Below, piece after piece: positions 14,758 through 23,617 of a stretch of DNA of 34,018 nt. The notes beneath the pieces are model-generated. The model saw only the letters and a program-made list of their open reading frames with translations, ran no database searches and had not been told where the DNA came from. Numbering within the stretch: the stretch's first letter is position 1; the number at the start of each line of letters is the position of its first letter. The translations under genes and the position numbers were made by a program. Origin of the DNA: Acidobacteriota bacterium (GTDB taxonomy: Bacteria > Actinomycetota > Acidimicrobiia > Acidimicrobiales > CADCSY01); assembly GCA_019510095.1 (NCBI GenBank), contig JAEKLB010000030.1, positions 1 through 34,018 of the forward strand. Direction: 5' to 3'.

Positions 14758-15657
14758 CTACGGCTCGGAGGGGGCGGCGGGGGCAGTGGCGAGCTCGGCC
14801 TCGACGTCGGACCAGGTGAGCTCGGGCGATCGGCGGTCGAGGGCGATGCCCCGCTCACGGTCGTCGGCTTCGGCCCGCTCGGCAAAGCGGGTGAAGAGCA
14901 TCACGATGATCGACCAGATGTAGAGGCTCCCGACCACCTTCATGAGGGCGGCGGCGATCTGTTGGTCCTCGACGGCCGTCATGCCCCACAACGACCCGGT
15001 TCTGTCGTACGACTTGTAGATCACCGAGTCGGCGAAGACCAGCCAGCCGGCGGGCACCGTGGGCACGACCGACTGCAGGAAGAGGTGGGCCATCTGCAGG
15101 GGCAGCGTGAAGCGGAGCTCCGGCAGCGGCCCCGCGACACCCATCCACATGACCAGCGAGGTCGTGAAGAGCAACACGTGCATGCCGAAGTGCACCGGGC
15201 CGTGAGCCACCGCCAGCCCGACGAGCTTGGGCCAGTGGCTGAGGACGACGACGGCGTTGAACGCCAGCGACGCTGGCACGAGGCGCGTCACCCACCGCAC
15301 GACGCGATAGCCCCGGCCCGACCCCACCACCAGGCGGGCCAACCAGGTCGGGGTGCCCAGGAGGATCATCGGGGGCACGACGAGCGAGAGCAACATGTGC
15401 TGCGCCATGTGGACGCTGTAGAGATAGCGCTCGCCGATGTCGTGCATGGGCCAGTCGGAGGCCAACCACAGCAGCAGCAGCCCACCGCAGAACCAGCGCA
15501 GCTGGCTGGCCGTGACCGCTGGCTCATCGGCTCGTGTGGCCTTCGGGCCGATCGTGCGGATGGCGTAGCGGTACAGCAGGGCGAGGCCGGCGATGAGGGC
15601 CCAGACCTCAGGATGCGGCTGCCATCGCCAGACGTCCGGAGAGGCCGCCGCCAGCAT
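14758..15657 (-). CDS. ctaG: cytochrome c oxidase assembly protein, CtaG (caa3) type
   Basis: LASDWPMHDIGERYLYSVHMAQHMLLSLVVPPMILLGTPTWLARL...VHFGMHVLLFTTSLVMWMGVAGPLPELR. Confidence 0.88.
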   Translation of the reverse strand: MLAAASPDVWRWQPHPEVWALIAGLALLYRYAIRTIGPKATRADEPAVTASQLRWFCGGLLLLWLASDWPMHDIGERYLYSVHMAQHMLLSLVVPPMILLGTPTWLARLVVGSGRGYRVVRWVTRLVPASLAFNAVVVLSHWPKLVGLAVAHGPVHFGMHVLLFTTSLVMWMGVAGPLPELRFTLPLQMAHLFLQSVVPTVPAGWLVFADSVIYKSYDRTGSLWGMTAVEDQQIAAALMKVVGSLYIWSIIVMLFTRFAERAEADDRERGIALDRRSPELTWSDVEAELATAPAAPSEP

Positions 15658-15663
15658 CCGCGC

Positions 15664-16038
15664 CTACCTCGTGATTCGCGCCGGTGGCGGGATCTTGTTC
15701 AACGGCACGCTGGTCGTGTCGTTGCCGAAGAACTGGAACGCCGTCATCATGATGGCGATGTAGACCCCCGCGGCCAGCAGGATGCCGGTGAGGAAGAACC
15801 GCCGGAACAGCAGGCTGTCGAACCGCAGGTGCATGAACCACAGGGCGACGGTCGCGAACTTGATCACCATCAGGGTCAGGAGCGAACCGATGATGAGCGC
15901 GTTGGGATGGCGGTAGCCGAGCACGATCTCGGCACCCGTGACCACCCCAAGGAAGAGGGCCACGTAGACGTACTGCAGGTCGCTCGGATGGGCATGGCCC
16001 GAACCGTGGACCGTCTCCTCGTGCGCCGCGATCGCCAT
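15664..16038 (-). CDS. cytochrome c oxidase subunit IV-like protein
   Basis: In-frame ATG at 16038; YVYVALFLGVVTGAEIVLGY...LTLMVIKFATVALWFMHLRFDSLLFRRFF. Confidence 0.83.
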   Translation of the reverse strand: MAIAAHEETVHGSGHAHPSDLQYVYVALFLGVVTGAEIVLGYRHPNALIIGSLLTLMVIKFATVALWFMHLRFDSLLFRRFFLTGILLAAGVYIAIMMTAFQFFGNDTTSVPLNKIPPPARITR

Positions 16039-16052
16039 GTCGAGTCTCTTCC

Positions 16053-16670
16053 CTACGGGTGGATGAGGTAGACGACGGTGAAGATCAGGATCCACACCAC
16101 GTCGACGAAGTGCCAGTACAGACCGACGATCTCGACCGTCTCCGCCTTCTCGGTGGGGAGGTTGCCCCGCAGCGAGAGCGTGTAGAGCGACAGCAGCATG
16201 ATGATGCCGATCGTCACGTGGACGCCGTGGAATCCGGTGAGCGTGTAGAAGGCCGAGCTCTGGAGGTTGGTCGTGTAGCCGAGGCCTTCCCGGACGAACG
16301 AGGTGAACTCGTAGACCTGCCCGGCCACGAAGGTGGCGCCGAGCGCCGCCGTGGTGAGGATCCAGATCCGGGCCCGGCGGTGGTCGCCCCGCTGGATGCC
16401 GGCCAACGCCAGCACCATGGTGAGCGAGCTCATCAGCAGCACGAACGAGCTCACCGACGTGAAGGGGATGTCGTAGATCTGGGAGACCTTGGGCCCGACG
16501 CCGACCGGCTTGTTCCGATAGATCAGGAACACCGAGATGAGCCCGCCGAAGAGCAGGCACTCCGAACCCAGGAAGGCCCACATGGCCAACTTCTCGTTCG
16601 ACAGCCCGGTGCTCGTGTGGTGACCCTCGGACTGGTCCGGGATCGGCGCGTGGACGATGGTGTCGGTCAT
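16053..16670 (-). CDS. ctaE: cytochrome c oxidase subunit III
   Basis: MWAFLGSECLLFGGLISVFLIYR...YTLTGFHGVHVTIGIIML...VEIVGLYWHFVDVVWILIFTVVYL. Confidence 0.95.
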   Translation of the reverse strand: MTDTIVHAPIPDQSEGHHTSTGLSNEKLAMWAFLGSECLLFGGLISVFLIYRNKPVGVGPKVSQIYDIPFTSVSSFVLLMSSLTMVLALAGIQRGDHRRARIWILTTAALGATFVAGQVYEFTSFVREGLGYTTNLQSSAFYTLTGFHGVHVTIGIIMLLSLYTLSLRGNLPTEKAETVEIVGLYWHFVDVVWILIFTVVYLIHP

Positions 16671-18664
16671 TGGTCGGCGTCCTCTTCGGCCTCGGCTGCA
16701 CCGGCCACGACCGCTGCCGGCTCGGGCTCATGGGTGTCGTGGGTGTCGGCGTGGCCGTGGTGGCCCGCATCGGGATCGACCGACGGCTCGAGGACGAGGC
16801 CGTAGATGCCGACGAAGGTCAGCAGCCCACCGAACCCGGCCAGCCAGTAGGAGTAGATGAGACCCCAGCCGATGAACGGCAGACCGGCAGCGATGATCAG
16901 TGGCCAGTACGACGGTGACGGCAGATGGATGTTCTCGGGCGGCGTCGCCGCCGTGAACGACTCCGGATGCTCACGGCGGTGGAGCTTGTGATCGTCACCG
17001 AGCTCGTACTTCCGGTGCCACCACTCGTCGAGCGAGCTCACGGTCGGGCTGATGTCGAAGTTGTGGGCCGGAGGCGGTGACGACGTGGCCCACTCCAAGG
17101 TGCGGGCATCCCACGGGTCGGGATCGGTGACCACGTTGTTGCGACTCTTGACCACGTTGAAGATGAAGATCAGGAAGCCGACACCGATCGTGAACGCGCC
17201 GATCGACGAGAGCAGGTTCATCAGGTTCCAGCCCATGCCGTCGGCATAGGTGGCCGTGCGGCGGGGCTGACCTTGGAGGCCCAGCACGTGCATGGGCCCG
17301 AAGGTCAGGTTGAAGCCGATGAGCCAGGTGAAGAAGTGGATCTTGCCGATCTTCTCGTCGAGGCACCGGCCGAACACCTTCGGCCACCAGAAGTAGAAGC
17401 CGGCGAAGATGCCGAAGACCGAGCCACCGAAGAGCACGTAGTGGAAGTGGGCGACGATGTAGTAGGTGTCGGTCTGTTGCCAGTCCGAGGGCGAGATCGA
17501 GTGCGTCACGCCCGAGAGGCCGCCGATGGTGAACTGCGACACCAGGGCGATGGCAAAGCACATCGCCGTGGTGAACTGGAGCTTCCCGCCCCAGAGGGTC
17601 CCGATCCAGTTGAAGATCTTCACCCCTGTCGGCACCGCGATGAACATCGTCGAGAGCGAGAAGGCGGCAACGGTCACCGGGCCGGCACCCGACGCGAACA
17701 TGTGGTGGGCCCAGACGCCCCAGCCCATGAAGCCGATGGCGATGCCCGAGAAGACCATGAACGGGTAGCCGAACAGTGGCTTGCGGGCGAAGACCGGTAT
17801 GACCTCGGACACGATGCCGAAGGCCGGTAAGACCAGGATGTACACCTCTGGATGGCCGAAGATCCAGAACAGGTGCTGCCACATCAGCGGGTCGGCGCCC
17901 TTCTGGACCACGAAGAAGTTGCCGCCGAACAGCCGGTCGAACATCAGCAGGAACAAGGCGACGGTGATGACCGGGATGGCGAAGAGCAGCAGGAACTGCG
18001 CCACCAGCGCCATCCACGTGAAGATCGGCATGCGCATGAGCGTCATGCCCGGCGCCCGCATGTTGATGCAGGTGACGATCAGGTTGACGGCGCCGAGCAA
18101 CGACGCGATGCCGGCGATCTGCAGGCCGAGGGTCCAGAAGTCGATGCCGTGACCGGGGCTGTAGAGGACGCCCGAGTTGGGCGCGTAGTTGAACCAGCCG
18201 TTGTCGGCGATCTGGTCGAGAACGGCGCCGGAGTAGAGGAACAACCCACCGAAGAGGAAGATCCAGAACGACAGGGCGTTGAGCCGGGGGAACGCGACGT
18301 CGCGCGCGCCGATCTGCAGCGGGATGAGGTAGTTGGCGAAGGCCGCCAGCATCGGCATGATCACCAGGAAGACCATGGTCGTGCCGTGCATGGTGAACGC
18401 CTGGTTGTAACGCTCGGGCGAGAGCACCTGGCCGTTGGGTTGAGCCAGCTGGGCCCGGATGAGCAGGGCCTCGAGGCCGCCGATCGCAAAGAAGGTGAGT
18501 GCGGTCGCGCCGTAGAGGATGCCGATCCGCTTGTGGTCGACGGTGGTGATCCACGACCGCCAGCCGGTGGTCGACGTCGGCCGCCGGAACGAGCCGAGGG
18601 GTTGGCGAACCTCGTCGTCGCCGGCAGTGAGCTCGAGGAGCGGGCGTTCTTCGGTGAGGGCCAT
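16667..18664 (-). CDS. ctaD: cytochrome c oxidase subunit I, canonical
   Basis: All catalytic motifs present: AFTMHGTTMVF, WIFGHPEVYILVLPAFG, WAHHMFASG, VPTGVKIFNW, VAHFHYVLFGG. Confidence 0.98.
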   Translation of the reverse strand: MALTEERPLLELTAGDDEVRQPLGSFRRPTSTTGWRSWITTVDHKRIGILYGATALTFFAIGGLEALLIRAQLAQPNGQVLSPERYNQAFTMHGTTMVFLVIMPMLAAFANYLIPLQIGARDVAFPRLNALSFWIFLFGGLFLYSGAVLDQIADNGWFNYAPNSGVLYSPGHGIDFWTLGLQIAGIASLLGAVNLIVTCINMRAPGMTLMRMPIFTWMALVAQFLLLFAIPVITVALFLLMFDRLFGGNFFVVQKGADPLMWQHLFWIFGHPEVYILVLPAFGIVSEVIPVFARKPLFGYPFMVFSGIAIGFMGWGVWAHHMFASGAGPVTVAAFSLSTMFIAVPTGVKIFNWIGTLWGGKLQFTTAMCFAIALVSQFTIGGLSGVTHSISPSDWQQTDTYYIVAHFHYVLFGGSVFGIFAGFYFWWPKVFGRCLDEKIGKIHFFTWLIGFNLTFGPMHVLGLQGQPRRTATYADGMGWNLMNLLSSIGAFTIGVGFLIFIFNVVKSRNNVVTDPDPWDARTLEWATSSPPPAHNFDISPTVSSLDEWWHRKYELGDDHKLHRREHPESFTAATPPENIHLPSPSYWPLIIAAGLPFIGWGLIYSYWLAGFGGLLTFVGIYGLVLEPSVDPDAGHHGHADTHDTHEPEPAAVVAGAAEAEEDADQ

Positions 18665-18666
18665 CG

Positions 18667-19722
18667 CTACTTCAGCGTCTCCAGGTAGGCGTACAGGCGG
18701 TCGATCTCGGCTTCGGACAGCTGGCCGATGCGCATGAGCGAGCCAGCCTTTCGCTGCGGGTTGCGCAGCCAGGCCTCGACCTCGTTGCGGTCATCGAGGT
18801 TGTAGATGCACCCGGCGAAGCAGTCACGGCTGAAGAGGTGGGTCAGGTTGGGCGCCGACGGCGAATCGGCCGCCACTGTCTGGTACTCGCCGTCGACCTG
18901 GTGGCAGCCCGAGCAACCCTTCTGGGCGAACAGGTCGTAACCCTCGGCGGCCAGGCCCGAGGTGGGCTTGGTCGGTTTCGTCTGCATGTGGGCGACCCAG
19001 TCGGCCCAGCCCGCCTTGTCGTGGGCCACGACCTTGAGCCGCATGTTGGCATGCGAGATGCCGCAGAACTCGGCGCACTGGCCGGAGTAGACGCCGGGAT
19101 GGTCGGCCTCCAGCTTCCAGTCGTGGACCCGGCCGGGGACGACGTCCTTCTTGCCGTTGAGTCGGGGGGCCCAGAACGAGTGGATGACGTCCTTGGAGTC
19201 GAGCTTGAGGGCGACGGGCACGCCGGCCGGGATGTGCAGCTCGTTGGCGGTGATGATCGGGTCGCTGATGCCGAACTTCGACTGGGCTTGGTAGGTGTAC
19301 GACCACCAGTACTTCTGGCCGGTCACCTCGACCTGGAGGGCGTTCTTCGGAACCTCGCTGAGGTCGAAGATCACCGGCACGGTGAAGACACCGACCGCAC
19401 CGAGGATGATCGCCGGAAGGATCGTCCACCCCAGCTCGAGCCGGGTGTTGCCGTGCAACTGCTCGGGGAAGTCCTCGTCGCCGGGGCGGCGGCGGAACTT
19501 GACGATTGCGAAGAGGACGAGTCCCTGCACGAGGCAGAACACCGCGACCGCGATCAGGAAGACCGGGTTGAACAGGTGGTCGATCTTGCGGGCGTACGGC
19601 CCTTCCGGCTTCAGCGTGTCCTGCGGCGCGTTCGACGCGCAGGCCGATAGGAGCAGCGACAGCGCGAGGACCGGCACCAGCCGGAGCCCCTTCCGCCGTC
19701 GAGCCGCGGGGAGGCGGGTCAC
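18667..19722 (-). CDS. ctaC: cytochrome c oxidase subunit II with C-terminal cytochrome c domain (lipoprotein)
   Basis: Lipobox LLSACAS; CuA motif GVYSGQCAEFCGISHANMRL; heme c motif CSGCH and downstream GSLM. Confidence 0.95.
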   Translation of the reverse strand: MTRLPAARRRKGLRLVPVLALSLLLSACASNAPQDTLKPEGPYARKIDHLFNPVFLIAVAVFCLVQGLVLFAIVKFRRRPGDEDFPEQLHGNTRLELGWTILPAIILGAVGVFTVPVIFDLSEVPKNALQVEVTGQKYWWSYTYQAQSKFGISDPIITANELHIPAGVPVALKLDSKDVIHSFWAPRLNGKKDVVPGRVHDWKLEADHPGVYSGQCAEFCGISHANMRLKVVAHDKAGWADWVAHMQTKPTKPTSGLAAEGYDLFAQKGCSGCHQVDGEYQTVAADSPSAPNLTHLFSRDCFAGCIYNLDDRNEVEAWLRNPQRKAGSLMRIGQLSEAEIDRLYAYLETLK

Positions 19723-20462
19723 GGGTGGGTCTCCTCGGCGTTGGCGACGTGCTCCGACTTGTGCTCGGCGTCGTGCTTCTCGATGTGGCGCTCACCGTGC
19801 ACGAGTCCGACGATGCCACCAGCAAGGAGGGCGACAGCCCCCAGCACCACGACGGCAGTCAGGACCGACGAAGCGGCCGTCGGCTTGAACGAGATCAAGG
19901 TGGCGAGCGACAGCACGACGAGCGCCAGCCCGATGGCGGCGATGACCGAGCCGTTCTTGGGCAGGGCCAGCAGCACCCGCGAGAAGCTCAGGACGATGAA
20001 GGCGACGCCGAGGGCGGCGACGACCGGCACCTCCAGCGGGAACATCAGCTGGTTGCGGAGCTTGCGGTTGTGCTCGTGGTCCCCAGTCGCCCGCTCGGCC
20101 CATCCCTGGACCAGCCATTCGAGGAACACCAGCGCCAGCACGCCGAGGCCGGCGTAGAGGAGGGCACCGTGGCTAGCGAGACCGATCAGCGAGAGCCCGG
20201 CACCGAAGGCCGCCAAGGGCGGCCAGAAGGCAGGAAGCGACCGGCGGGCCGGCACCTCGGCCGCGGCTGGGTCAGCAGTCGCCGCGACGTCACCATCGCC
20301 GGTTGCCACCGACACCAGGCCGAGAAGGAAGGCCCCGGCCGAGATCGTGCCGAGCACGAACGCGCCGAACCATTCGAAGTCGCTGCCGAGGGCGAAGGCC
20401 CAGGCGGCGAAGAACGCCAGCGTGGACACGCCGAACCACAGCTTGCCGCCGGTGGTGGTCAT
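19719..20462 (-). CDS. multi-TM membrane protein in oxidase operon; N-terminal half resembles actinobacterial oxidase subunit IV (CtaF), His-rich C-terminal tail
   Basis: 248 aa; FGAFVLGTISAGAFLLGLV...LPAFWPPLAAFGAGLSLIGLA...; tail HGERHIEKHDAEHKSEHVANAEETH; start and stop overlap neighbouring genes. Confidence 0.65.
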   Translation of the reverse strand: MTTTGGKLWFGVSTLAFFAAWAFALGSDFEWFGAFVLGTISAGAFLLGLVSVATGDGDVAATADPAAAEVPARRSLPAFWPPLAAFGAGLSLIGLASHGALLYAGLGVLALVFLEWLVQGWAERATGDHEHNRKLRNQLMFPLEVPVVAALGVAFIVLSFSRVLLALPKNGSVIAAIGLALVVLSLATLISFKPTAASSVLTAVVVLGAVALLAGGIVGLVHGERHIEKHDAEHKSEHVANAEETHP

Positions 20463-21067
20463 GACGTCGGCCCTCCTGCGAGGAACCAGAGGCACCACCA
20501 GACGGCGATGCCGGCGACGACTGCGAAGTGCCAGAAGGCGGTGGCGCTGGCGACGAACTCGGCGTTGCGAGCATGGAACTGGCCTCCGAAGACGCGGAAG
20601 CCCATCACCACGAAGAGCAGCATGGCGGCGACGACCACGAACAGGTGCACCGCCGAGATGGCATAGACGTAGCTGGCGTAGTTGTCGGCCCCGGCGACCA
20701 GGTGGAGCTGGCCCCAGCAGAAGCTGAGCCCGTTGATGAAGGCGGCGCCGAGCATCAGGGTGACCCCCACCGCCACGTAGGCCTGGCGACGCTCGTTGGC
20801 CTTGATGGCCGACACCGCCCACTGGGCGGTGAACGACGACAGGAACAAGGCTGAGTAGGTGATGGCCAGCGCGGCGTTGGGCAAGGTCCCGGCCTCGGGC
20901 GCCCAGGTGCCGCCGGCGTGGACGGTGGCGTTGCGGGCCGAGAAGTAGGCGGCCAGCAGCCCACCGAACAACGTCACGCCGGCGACGATGACCAGCATCG
21001 TCCCGACCAGCATCACGTTGCGGCGCTCGGGGAGCGGGGGCGCCGGCAGCTCGAGGACAGCCGTCAT
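20459..21067 (-). CDS. second oxidase subunit III-like protein
   Basis: 202 aa, about 5 TM; SYVYAISAVHLFVVVAAMLLFVVMGF...ATAFWHFAVVAGIAVWWCLWF resembles subunit III helices; overlaps both neighbours. Confidence 0.8.
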   Translation of the reverse strand: MTAVLELPAPPLPERRNVMLVGTMLVIVAGVTLFGGLLAAYFSARNATVHAGGTWAPEAGTLPNAALAITYSALFLSSFTAQWAVSAIKANERRQAYVAVGVTLMLGAAFINGLSFCWGQLHLVAGADNYASYVYAISAVHLFVVVAAMLLFVVMGFRVFGGQFHARNAEFVASATAFWHFAVVAGIAVWWCLWFLAGGPTS

Positions 21068-22629
21068 GCATCTACCTCGTCGAGGAGCGGGGTCGGCGAG
21101 GTCACGGGGGGCACCGGTGCCGAGAAGTTCGAGGGCGGGGGCGGCGACGTGGTCGACCACTCGAGCGTGTGCCCACCCCACGGGTCAGCCTCCGCCCGCT
21201 GACCCTTGCGCAGGCCAGCGGCGAGCAGCGACAGCACCACGACGACCGCGCCGAGGGCCACCAGCCCGCCACCGATGGCGCTGACCGCGTTGAGGGCCCG
21301 CGCGCCGCTGGACCCGAAGTGCGTGGCCCGCAGCGGCACGTCGTTGGCCATGCCGTTGACCAGGTCGGGCGCCGCCAGCACCAGCGTGCCGACGAACGTG
21401 GTGACGAACGCCAGGGCGCCGGCCGCCTCGCTCAGCACCACGCCGTACAGCTTGGGAGCCCACCACCAGATCGCCGCCAAGGCGCCGAGCCACGCCGCGC
21501 CGGTGAGCACGAGGTGGACCTGAGCCGCCTCCCACACCGTGCCCCGCAGGTCGAGCCCGTCGATGACCGACAGGGCGCCGACGGCTGCTCCGGCAAGCAG
21601 GAGCAGCACGCTGCCCATGGCGAGGAGCAGGGCCGCGCGGGGCGCCGGCCGGCCGTTGCGCAGGCTGTCAGCCAGGAGGCCGAGCAGGGCGAGCGGCGGC
21701 ACGATCGCGGCCAGGCCGATGGCGACGTAGAGGAAGTCGTCGAAGCTCGACGGCACCTGGGCCCAGGCCCCGAGGCCGACGACCCCGAGCAGGCCGACGA
21801 TGACCATGCTGGTGCCGCGACGGCGCAGCTTGCGCCCCGACACGACCGGCACGATCTCGAGGGCGACGCCAGCCGCGGGGACGGCGACCAGGTACACCTG
21901 GGGAACGCTGAACATCCACCCGATGGCGCCATAGTCGTTCAGGTCGTAGCTGCCACCGAAGTGGTGGGTGACGTAGAGGATGGCCAGCCGCGCCAGCAGC
22001 ACCGGGGCGGTGAGCAGGGTGAGGCTGCCGCCCACGACGACCGACCAGGTGAAGGCGGGCACGTCTCCCAGCGCCATCCCCCCGGCGCGCATGGTGAGTG
22101 CAGTGGTCAGGACGCTGACCAGGCCCAAGAGCGTGGCCACGGTGAGGCCAGCCAGGGCCAGCAGGTGGAGATCGACGGCGGCCGGCTGACCACCCGAGGG
22201 GCCGCCATTGGCCAGATAGGCGCCGATCAGCAAGCCGCCGGACACGACGTAGGACCAGTAGGCGGTGGCGGATCCCCGGGGGAAGGCGATCTCGGGCGAG
22301 CCGACCTGGAGCGGCACGATGAACGTGGCGATCCCCAACAGGAGCGGGACGAGGAACAGCCACAGGGCCACCTCGCCGTGGAACGTGTACGCCTGGGCGA
22401 ACGAGCCGGCGGTCAGCACGTCGAAGCCGTTGCTCACCCGCTCCACGGCGAGGAGCTCGCCGATCACCCCGCCAACCAGCAGGAACAGGAGAGCGGTGGC
22501 GATGTAGAGCCGACCGATCCGCTTGTGGTCTGAGGTGCTGAGCCACCCCGCAAGGCCGGCGCGGTCGGCCGGAGCCCCGGCCGTGGCGGCCGCGGCCTGA
22601 GGCGCGGGTCTGGTTTCGGTCATGGCCAT
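21064..22629 (-). CDS. divergent heme-copper oxidase subunit I homolog lacking the catalytic-site ligands
   Basis: 521 aa from ATG 22629 (alternative 22623); collinear with ctaD (LSTSDHKRIGRLYIATAL; AYTFHGEVALW; C-term DPWGGHTLEWSTTSPPPPSNF vs ctaD [21 protein letters not shown]) but SVPQVY, WAQVPS, AAQVHLVL at ligand motifs. Confidence 0.93.
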   Translation of the reverse strand: MAMTETRPAPQAAAATAGAPADRAGLAGWLSTSDHKRIGRLYIATALLFLLVGGVIGELLAVERVSNGFDVLTAGSFAQAYTFHGEVALWLFLVPLLLGIATFIVPLQVGSPEIAFPRGSATAYWSYVVSGGLLIGAYLANGGPSGGQPAAVDLHLLALAGLTVATLLGLVSVLTTALTMRAGGMALGDVPAFTWSVVVGGSLTLLTAPVLLARLAILYVTHHFGGSYDLNDYGAIGWMFSVPQVYLVAVPAAGVALEIVPVVSGRKLRRRGTSMVIVGLLGVVGLGAWAQVPSSFDDFLYVAIGLAAIVPPLALLGLLADSLRNGRPAPRAALLLAMGSVLLLLAGAAVGALSVIDGLDLRGTVWEAAQVHLVLTGAAWLGALAAIWWWAPKLYGVVLSEAAGALAFVTTFVGTLVLAAPDLVNGMANDVPLRATHFGSSGARALNAVSAIGGGLVALGAVVVVLSLLAAGLRKGQRAEADPWGGHTLEWSTTSPPPPSNFSAPVPPVTSPTPLLDEVDA

Positions 22630-22711: not shown

Positions 22712-23617
22712 TCACAGGCCCGACCGCAGGAGCTGGTCGAGCGCGATCGCCCCGAACAGGAGCGAGATGTAGGTGATCGACCAGCCGAACAGCTGCATGG
22801 CCGCCTGCGGGGTCTGCCGGCGCAGCAGGCGGAACGCGAACCAGGCGAACACCCCGCCGAGCACCAGGGCCAAGCCGTCGTAGACCAGCCCCATGTCGGC
22901 GACCGGGCCGAAGACCAGGCTGAGGGCCCACAGGAGCAACGTGTAGCGGACGATCCGGACGCCGGTGGTCCGCATGCTCGCCACCACCGGGAGCATCGGC
23001 ACATCGGCAGCGGCGTAGTCGTCGCGGTAGCGCACGGCGAGCGCCCAGAAGTGCGGCGGGGTCCAGACGAAGATGATGGCGAACAGCACCACCGGGGCCC
23101 ACGACAGCGAATCGCGGACTGCCGCCCATCCGACCAACACCGGGACCGCTCCGGCCGCGCCGCCGATGACGATGTTGTGGGTCGAGGTCCGCTTCAGCCA
23201 CAGCGTGTAGACGAAGACGTAGAAGAGGGTGGCGCTGATGGCGAGCACCGCACTCAGCAGGTTGACCGCCGTCCACAGGAGGACGAAGGCGGCGATCTCG
23301 AGCCCGATGGCGAAGCGAAGCGCTTGTCGCGGGGTCACTGCGCCGGTCACCAGCGGGCGATGACGGGTGCGCTTCATGAGCCGGTCGATGTCGCGGTCGA
23401 CGTACATGTTGATGGCGTTGGCGCCGCCGGCGGCCAGCGTCCCACCGATGACCGTGGCGAGCACGAGGGTGATCGCCGGCAGCCCCCGCTCGGCCACGAC
23501 CATGGTCGGAACCGTGGTCACCAGCAGCAACTCGATGATCCGGGGCTTGGTCAGGGCGACGTAGGCACCCACCCGGCCGCCGAGGCGCGCGGGGACGGTG
23601 AGAGCCTGCAACTGCAC
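22712..23617 (-). CDS. ctaB: heme o synthase (protoheme IX farnesyltransferase)
   Basis: [19 protein letters not shown]...[26 protein letters not shown]...[30 protein letters not shown] start at 23617. Confidence 0.95.

Follow-up and report, generated by a model that had tools for sequence, protein, structure and literature searches.

The window, that is, the whole 34,018-nucleotide stretch of DNA analysed, encodes a protein that by sequence is homologous to heme-copper oxidase subunit I and yet fails the defining catalytic feature of such subunits. Residue-level comparison shows this protein, hereafter I*, to be without an O2-reduction site. Together with two neighbouring genes, III* and U, I* would make up a membrane module that is catalytically dead, a “pseudo-oxidase”. 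We favour, with moderate confidence, the view that this module has been progressively demetallated and persists as a partner, itself non-catalytic, of the caa3 oxidase encoded next to it. The genes and diagnostic codons are as follows:

22712..23590, minus strand: ctaB, heme O synthase, assigned by homology and position; conserved gene upstream of I*; 5' boundary approximate.
21064..22629, minus strand: I*, COX1-like pseudo-subunit I of 521 aa, without CuB and high-spin heme ligands, H84 and H372 kept.
22378..22380, minus strand: codon of H84, helix II low-spin heme ligand, kept.
21904..21906, minus strand: codon of V242, at the first CuB His position.
21754..21759, minus strand: codons of Q291 (21757-21759) and V292 (21754-21756), at the position of the CuB His-His pair.
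21520..21522, minus strand: codon of Q370, at the high-spin heme His position.
21514..21516, minus strand: codon of H372, helix X low-spin heme ligand, kept.
20459..21067, minus strand: III*, second COX3-like subunit of 202 aa (Pfam COX3, E 5.5e-8), with an ATGA overlap with I*.
19719..20462, minus strand: U, 7-TM protein of 247 aa, with an ATGA overlap with III*.
18667..19722, minus strand: ctaC, subunit II of the active caa3 oxidase, fused to a cytochrome c and bearing the CuA motif; GTGA overlap with U.
16667..18664, minus strand: canonical ctaD, subunit I, all ligands present.
16053..16670, minus strand: canonical ctaE, subunit III.
15664..16041, minus strand: COX4_pro-like subunit IV.
14758..15657, minus strand: Caa3_CtaG assembly factor.

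Pfam COX1 spans the entire length of I* (E 4.1e-53), and alignment to the canonical ctaD of the same window gives 33% identity. Translation and alignment bear out, residue by residue, what the first-pass annotation had read from the letters: the two low-spin heme ligands are present, the CuB and high-spin heme ligands are replaced, the PEVY Glu has become Gln with its Tyr (Tyr246) kept, and the K-channel Lys of VPTGVK is missing. The residue at the latter position is Leu, and the D-channel Asp is Glu. The D- and K-channel residues and the PEVY Glu are also variable among I* orthologs. In canonical A-type COX1, an Arg-Arg pair binds the heme propionates; the aligned position is Pro-Leu in the window's I*, and Arg is rare at either position across I* proteins.

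The COX1 fold of I* is predicted to survive the loss of the metals. In the comparison with Pfam, known structures and an AlphaFold model that the same annotation had proposed, the I* model, built with 40 homologs, adopts the 12-TM COX1 fold (pLDDT 91.2, pTM 0.92). The closest structures in the PDB are subunits I of mycobacterial, corynebacterial and Thermus oxidases (TMq 0.85-0.88, and 0.87-0.88 for aa3/caa3 subunit I), with a TM score of 0.87 between the model and mycobacterial aa3 subunit I. Conservation within I* is highest in the C-terminal TLEW tail and in two loops, IV-V and II-III (PLQVG..AFPR).

Searching the class to which the window belongs, together with its relatives, and then extracting the loci yielded 48 full-length I* orthologs, all within a single order. 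The CuB His-His pair is lost as a pair in all 48, the first CuB position is still His in one of them (L047), and the high-spin His is lost in most. For comparison, all six metal-ligand His are kept in 104/104 scoreable canonical COX1 sequences of the other loci fetched, many of which come from other phyla. The 48 orthologs form one side of a tree branch with 100/100 support; when outgroups from many phyla were included, a subset of the I* proteins was again recovered as one deep clade (100/100), with long I* branches. In genome contigs, a profile of the window's I* family matched mostly canonical COX1. All but one of the named I*-bearing loci carry the labels Acidimicrobiia, Acidimicrobiales, Acidimicrobiaceae or other Actinomycetota; these labels, together with relatedness, are the basis for calling the window's order Acidimicrobiales. 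The exception (L226:588-9712, JAKUNG010000025.1), a contig assigned to Terriglobia (Acidobacteriota), carries a complete ctaB-I*-III*-U-II-I-III-IV-G operon with similarity typical of Acidimicrobiales; it is probably misbinned and would otherwise reflect horizontal transfer.

The lost catalytic residues, and an evolution faster than that of ctaD, could be those of a decaying pseudogene, which the first-pass annotation had already argued against, or of a sequencing artefact. For closely related pairs whose dS is below about 1, the dN/dS of I* is about 0.1-0.35 (example pairs, given as dN/dS: 0.040/0.177, 0.127/0.904, 0.107/1.106 and 0.116/0.405), well below 1 and hence indicative of purifying selection. 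The neighbouring canonical ctaD shows values of about 0.01-0.17 in pairs where both copies are available, and the dN of I* is about 2-5 times that of ctaD. If I* binds subunit I, this difference implies a loosely constrained interface. With 48 open, full-length orthologs that lack CuB, a fixed synteny (46/46 loci), co-occurrence with caa3 and a high-confidence fold, decay or assembly error is very improbable and we reject it. In the ortholog and dN/dS checks suggested along with the original claim, no CuB-intact ortholog was found and dN/dS was not near 1.

The first-pass annotation proposed, as one possibility, that I* holds a single low-spin heme, for which H84 and H372 should be invariant. 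Both His are present in only 15 of the 48 orthologs and the pair is broken in the other 33; a clade of 30 members has none with both. Within the full-length members of the window's own I* family, H84 is found in 8/10, H372 in 9/10 and both in 8/10, but these columns are ordinary ones (48% and 35% of columns, respectively, are at least as conserved). In L103, the nearest relative at 62% identity, H84 is replaced by Ala, and L110 has neither low-spin His. A conserved single low-spin heme as the function of the family is thus ruled out by the pattern of ligand loss. It is possible, given the two His, that the window's own I* binds a single heme between H84 and H372; such a heme may persist in this lineage as a relic or in a structural role. 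For the quinol-docking option of the annotation, no quinol site came to light in these comparisons.

Four orthologs (L041, L048, L096 and L118) have Arg or other residues at CuB and all three heme His, and others keep the low-spin pair only (L119, L089 in part, most of the window's family, and L031). I* proteins with all heme His or with the low-spin pair only branch outside the 30-member clade. The series suggests that CuB was lost first, then the high-spin ligand and then the low-spin ligands, the counts being unrooted.

U would complete the module. Its first half is COX-IV/CtaF-like: PF12270 (Cyt_c_ox_IV) is detected in 4/36 members, weakly (best E 0.0013), the U profile also matches small CtaF-sized ORFs, and Foldseek gives one weak match only, to chain 7q21_F (CtaF) of the C. 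glutamicum supercomplex (E 0.27). The model of U has a pLDDT of 81.6 but a pTM of only 0.56. The second half is akin to a 3-TM protein that follows ctaG in other actinobacterial caa3 operons. That post-ctaG gene carries a type-1 cupredoxin in most of the loci examined, namely in L252, L253, L254, L255, L257, L258 and L259. U itself ends in a type-1 cupredoxin, with His, Cys, His and Met, in seven early-branching Acidimicrobiales lineages; the copper motif is found in 7/46 scored loci and Pfam Cupredoxin_1 in 7/36 scanned. U of the f2 group still ends in the remnant of such a tail, which lacks the Cys-His-Met motif, and the window's U has neither a cupredoxin domain nor the His/Cys/His/Met copper ligands. 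At its C-terminus, the canonical ctaD of the window (16667-18664) is extended by a segment that includes a WP..-type 2-TM stretch. The same segment in relatives matches the portion of U that is COX-IV-like (model positions ~62-128), suggesting that the two have a subunit IV-like element in common.

The copper site of U occurs in 7/15 loci that keep the low-spin pair versus 0/31 of the others. This distribution is suggestive of joint heme and copper loss across I* and U. The naive Fisher p value of 1e-4 rests on only two phylogenetically independent contrasts, and we therefore do not claim a statistical link.

These distributions bear on the idea that the module is a redox device, in which a bis-His low-spin heme of I*, and the cupredoxin of U where present, would pass electrons to or from caa3. 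Both His are kept in the window, in 8/10 of its family and in early-branching lineages, the seven lineages with a complete type-1 copper motif in U all keep the heme pair, and in other actinobacterial classes the caa3 operons have related genes, combining 3 TM helices with a type-1 cupredoxin, directly after ctaG. However, the pair is missing in 33/48 orthologs, the nearest relative is without H84, conservation of the two His within the window's family is nothing out of the ordinary, I* proteins do not maintain the propionate Arg pair, and the window's U is without a cupredoxin. Because of the ligand losses and the cupredoxin-less U, electron transfer cannot be the order-wide function, and we consider a redox module improbable. 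Electron transfer may have been the ancestral function of I*, and a role of this kind confined to early-branching lineages is conceivable.

What is constant across the order is the genomic setting. The gene order ctaB-I*-III*-U-II-I-III-IV-ctaG recurs across many families, I*, III* and U lie on one strand and in that order in 46/46 scored loci, and the canonical subunit I gene is 4.4-5.5 kb downstream of I* in 38/39. In the window, consecutive genes share four-base stop/start overlaps (I*/III* ATGA, III*/U ATGA, U/II GTGA); the first of these confirms the 3' overlap of I* with the next gene noted in the initial annotation. Taking as caa3-type any ctaD scoring above ~780 bits against that of the window, nearly every sampled caa3-type genome of Acidimicrobiales also has I*, and all those followed up do, I* being located on the caa3 contig or, in fragmented assemblies, on a separate one. 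I* was not seen in surveyed genomes without a caa3-type ctaD (for example f3 and f5). The source genome encodes a second A-type COX1 on another contig (L063:3902-5926, contig C112), with the six ligand His kept, Leu at the K-channel Lys of VPTGVK and a cytochrome b match on the same contig.

From synteny, gene overlap and co-occurrence, we infer a physical association of I*/III*/U with caa3. Alternatively, I* could have a part in assembly or belong to a complex of its own. In the former case, I*, III* and U would serve as a mould or chaperone for heme and copper insertion into caa3, beside ctaB and ctaG. Both these genes are indeed neighbours, some U proteins bear a cupredoxin, and such a role would be unharmed by the loss of the module's own metals. 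Still, three genes resembling subunits I, III and IV make up a core rather than a single chaperone, and neither other actinobacterial classes nor the second aa3-type oxidases that these genomes also encode have the module, which makes an assembly factor an unlikely explanation.

The role of non-catalytic caa3 partner, one of the options raised in the first-pass annotation, is the best supported, by the 46/46 synteny, the co-occurrence with caa3 and the dN/dS of about 0.1-0.35. The module would derive from a duplicated cytochrome oxidase core that lost its catalytic metals stepwise and retained the assembly of I-, III- and IV-type subunits as a partner of caa3. The pairing of I* with III* and U would give a core resembling subunits I/III/IV, and this pseudo-core would attach to caa3 as the scaffold of a heteromer, or in support of stability, assembly or supercomplex formation. 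In a more specific version, caa3 is bound to a metal-free twin made of I*, III* and U, which passed stepwise from a redox-active duplicate to a structural half, with the window's lineage as a one-heme intermediate; we put this forward tentatively, as a conjecture that may well be wrong.

To our knowledge, the described members of the heme-copper superfamily all catalyse O2 or NO chemistry. No description of a non-catalytic heme-copper oxidase subunit I family, or of the I* module, was found in the open-access literature searched. The I* clade offers a natural series on what the oxidase fold does apart from catalysis, and it makes heteromeric oxidase assemblies in actinobacteria rich in uncultured members a testable possibility. 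In addition, automatic annotation may count non-oxidase COX1 homologs of these genomes as oxidases.

Compared to A-type subunit I (CtaD/CoxA; TIGR02891, PF00115), I* has the same 12-TM fold, full-length homology, loops and TLEW motif. Unlike CtaD/CoxA, it is without the CuB and high-spin ligands, the K-channel Lys and the PEVY Glu, and does not conserve the propionate Arg pair. Its score against the CtaD equivalog TIGR02891 (252 bits) is far below the curated cut-off of 670.75. The known caa3 operon (ctaCDEF, CtaG) encodes one core, whereas here the operon also contains I*, III* and U, which resemble subunits I, III and IV and would form a second, metal-depleted core that precedes the first and has no subunit II of its own. 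Actinobacterial CtaF (PF12270) bears a weak likeness to the first half of U; beyond that half, U adds three TM helices and, in some lineages, a cupredoxin. Overall, I* resembles pseudoenzymes in general: the catalytic residues are lost, the fold and the selection on it are kept, and the proposed partner is an active paralog.
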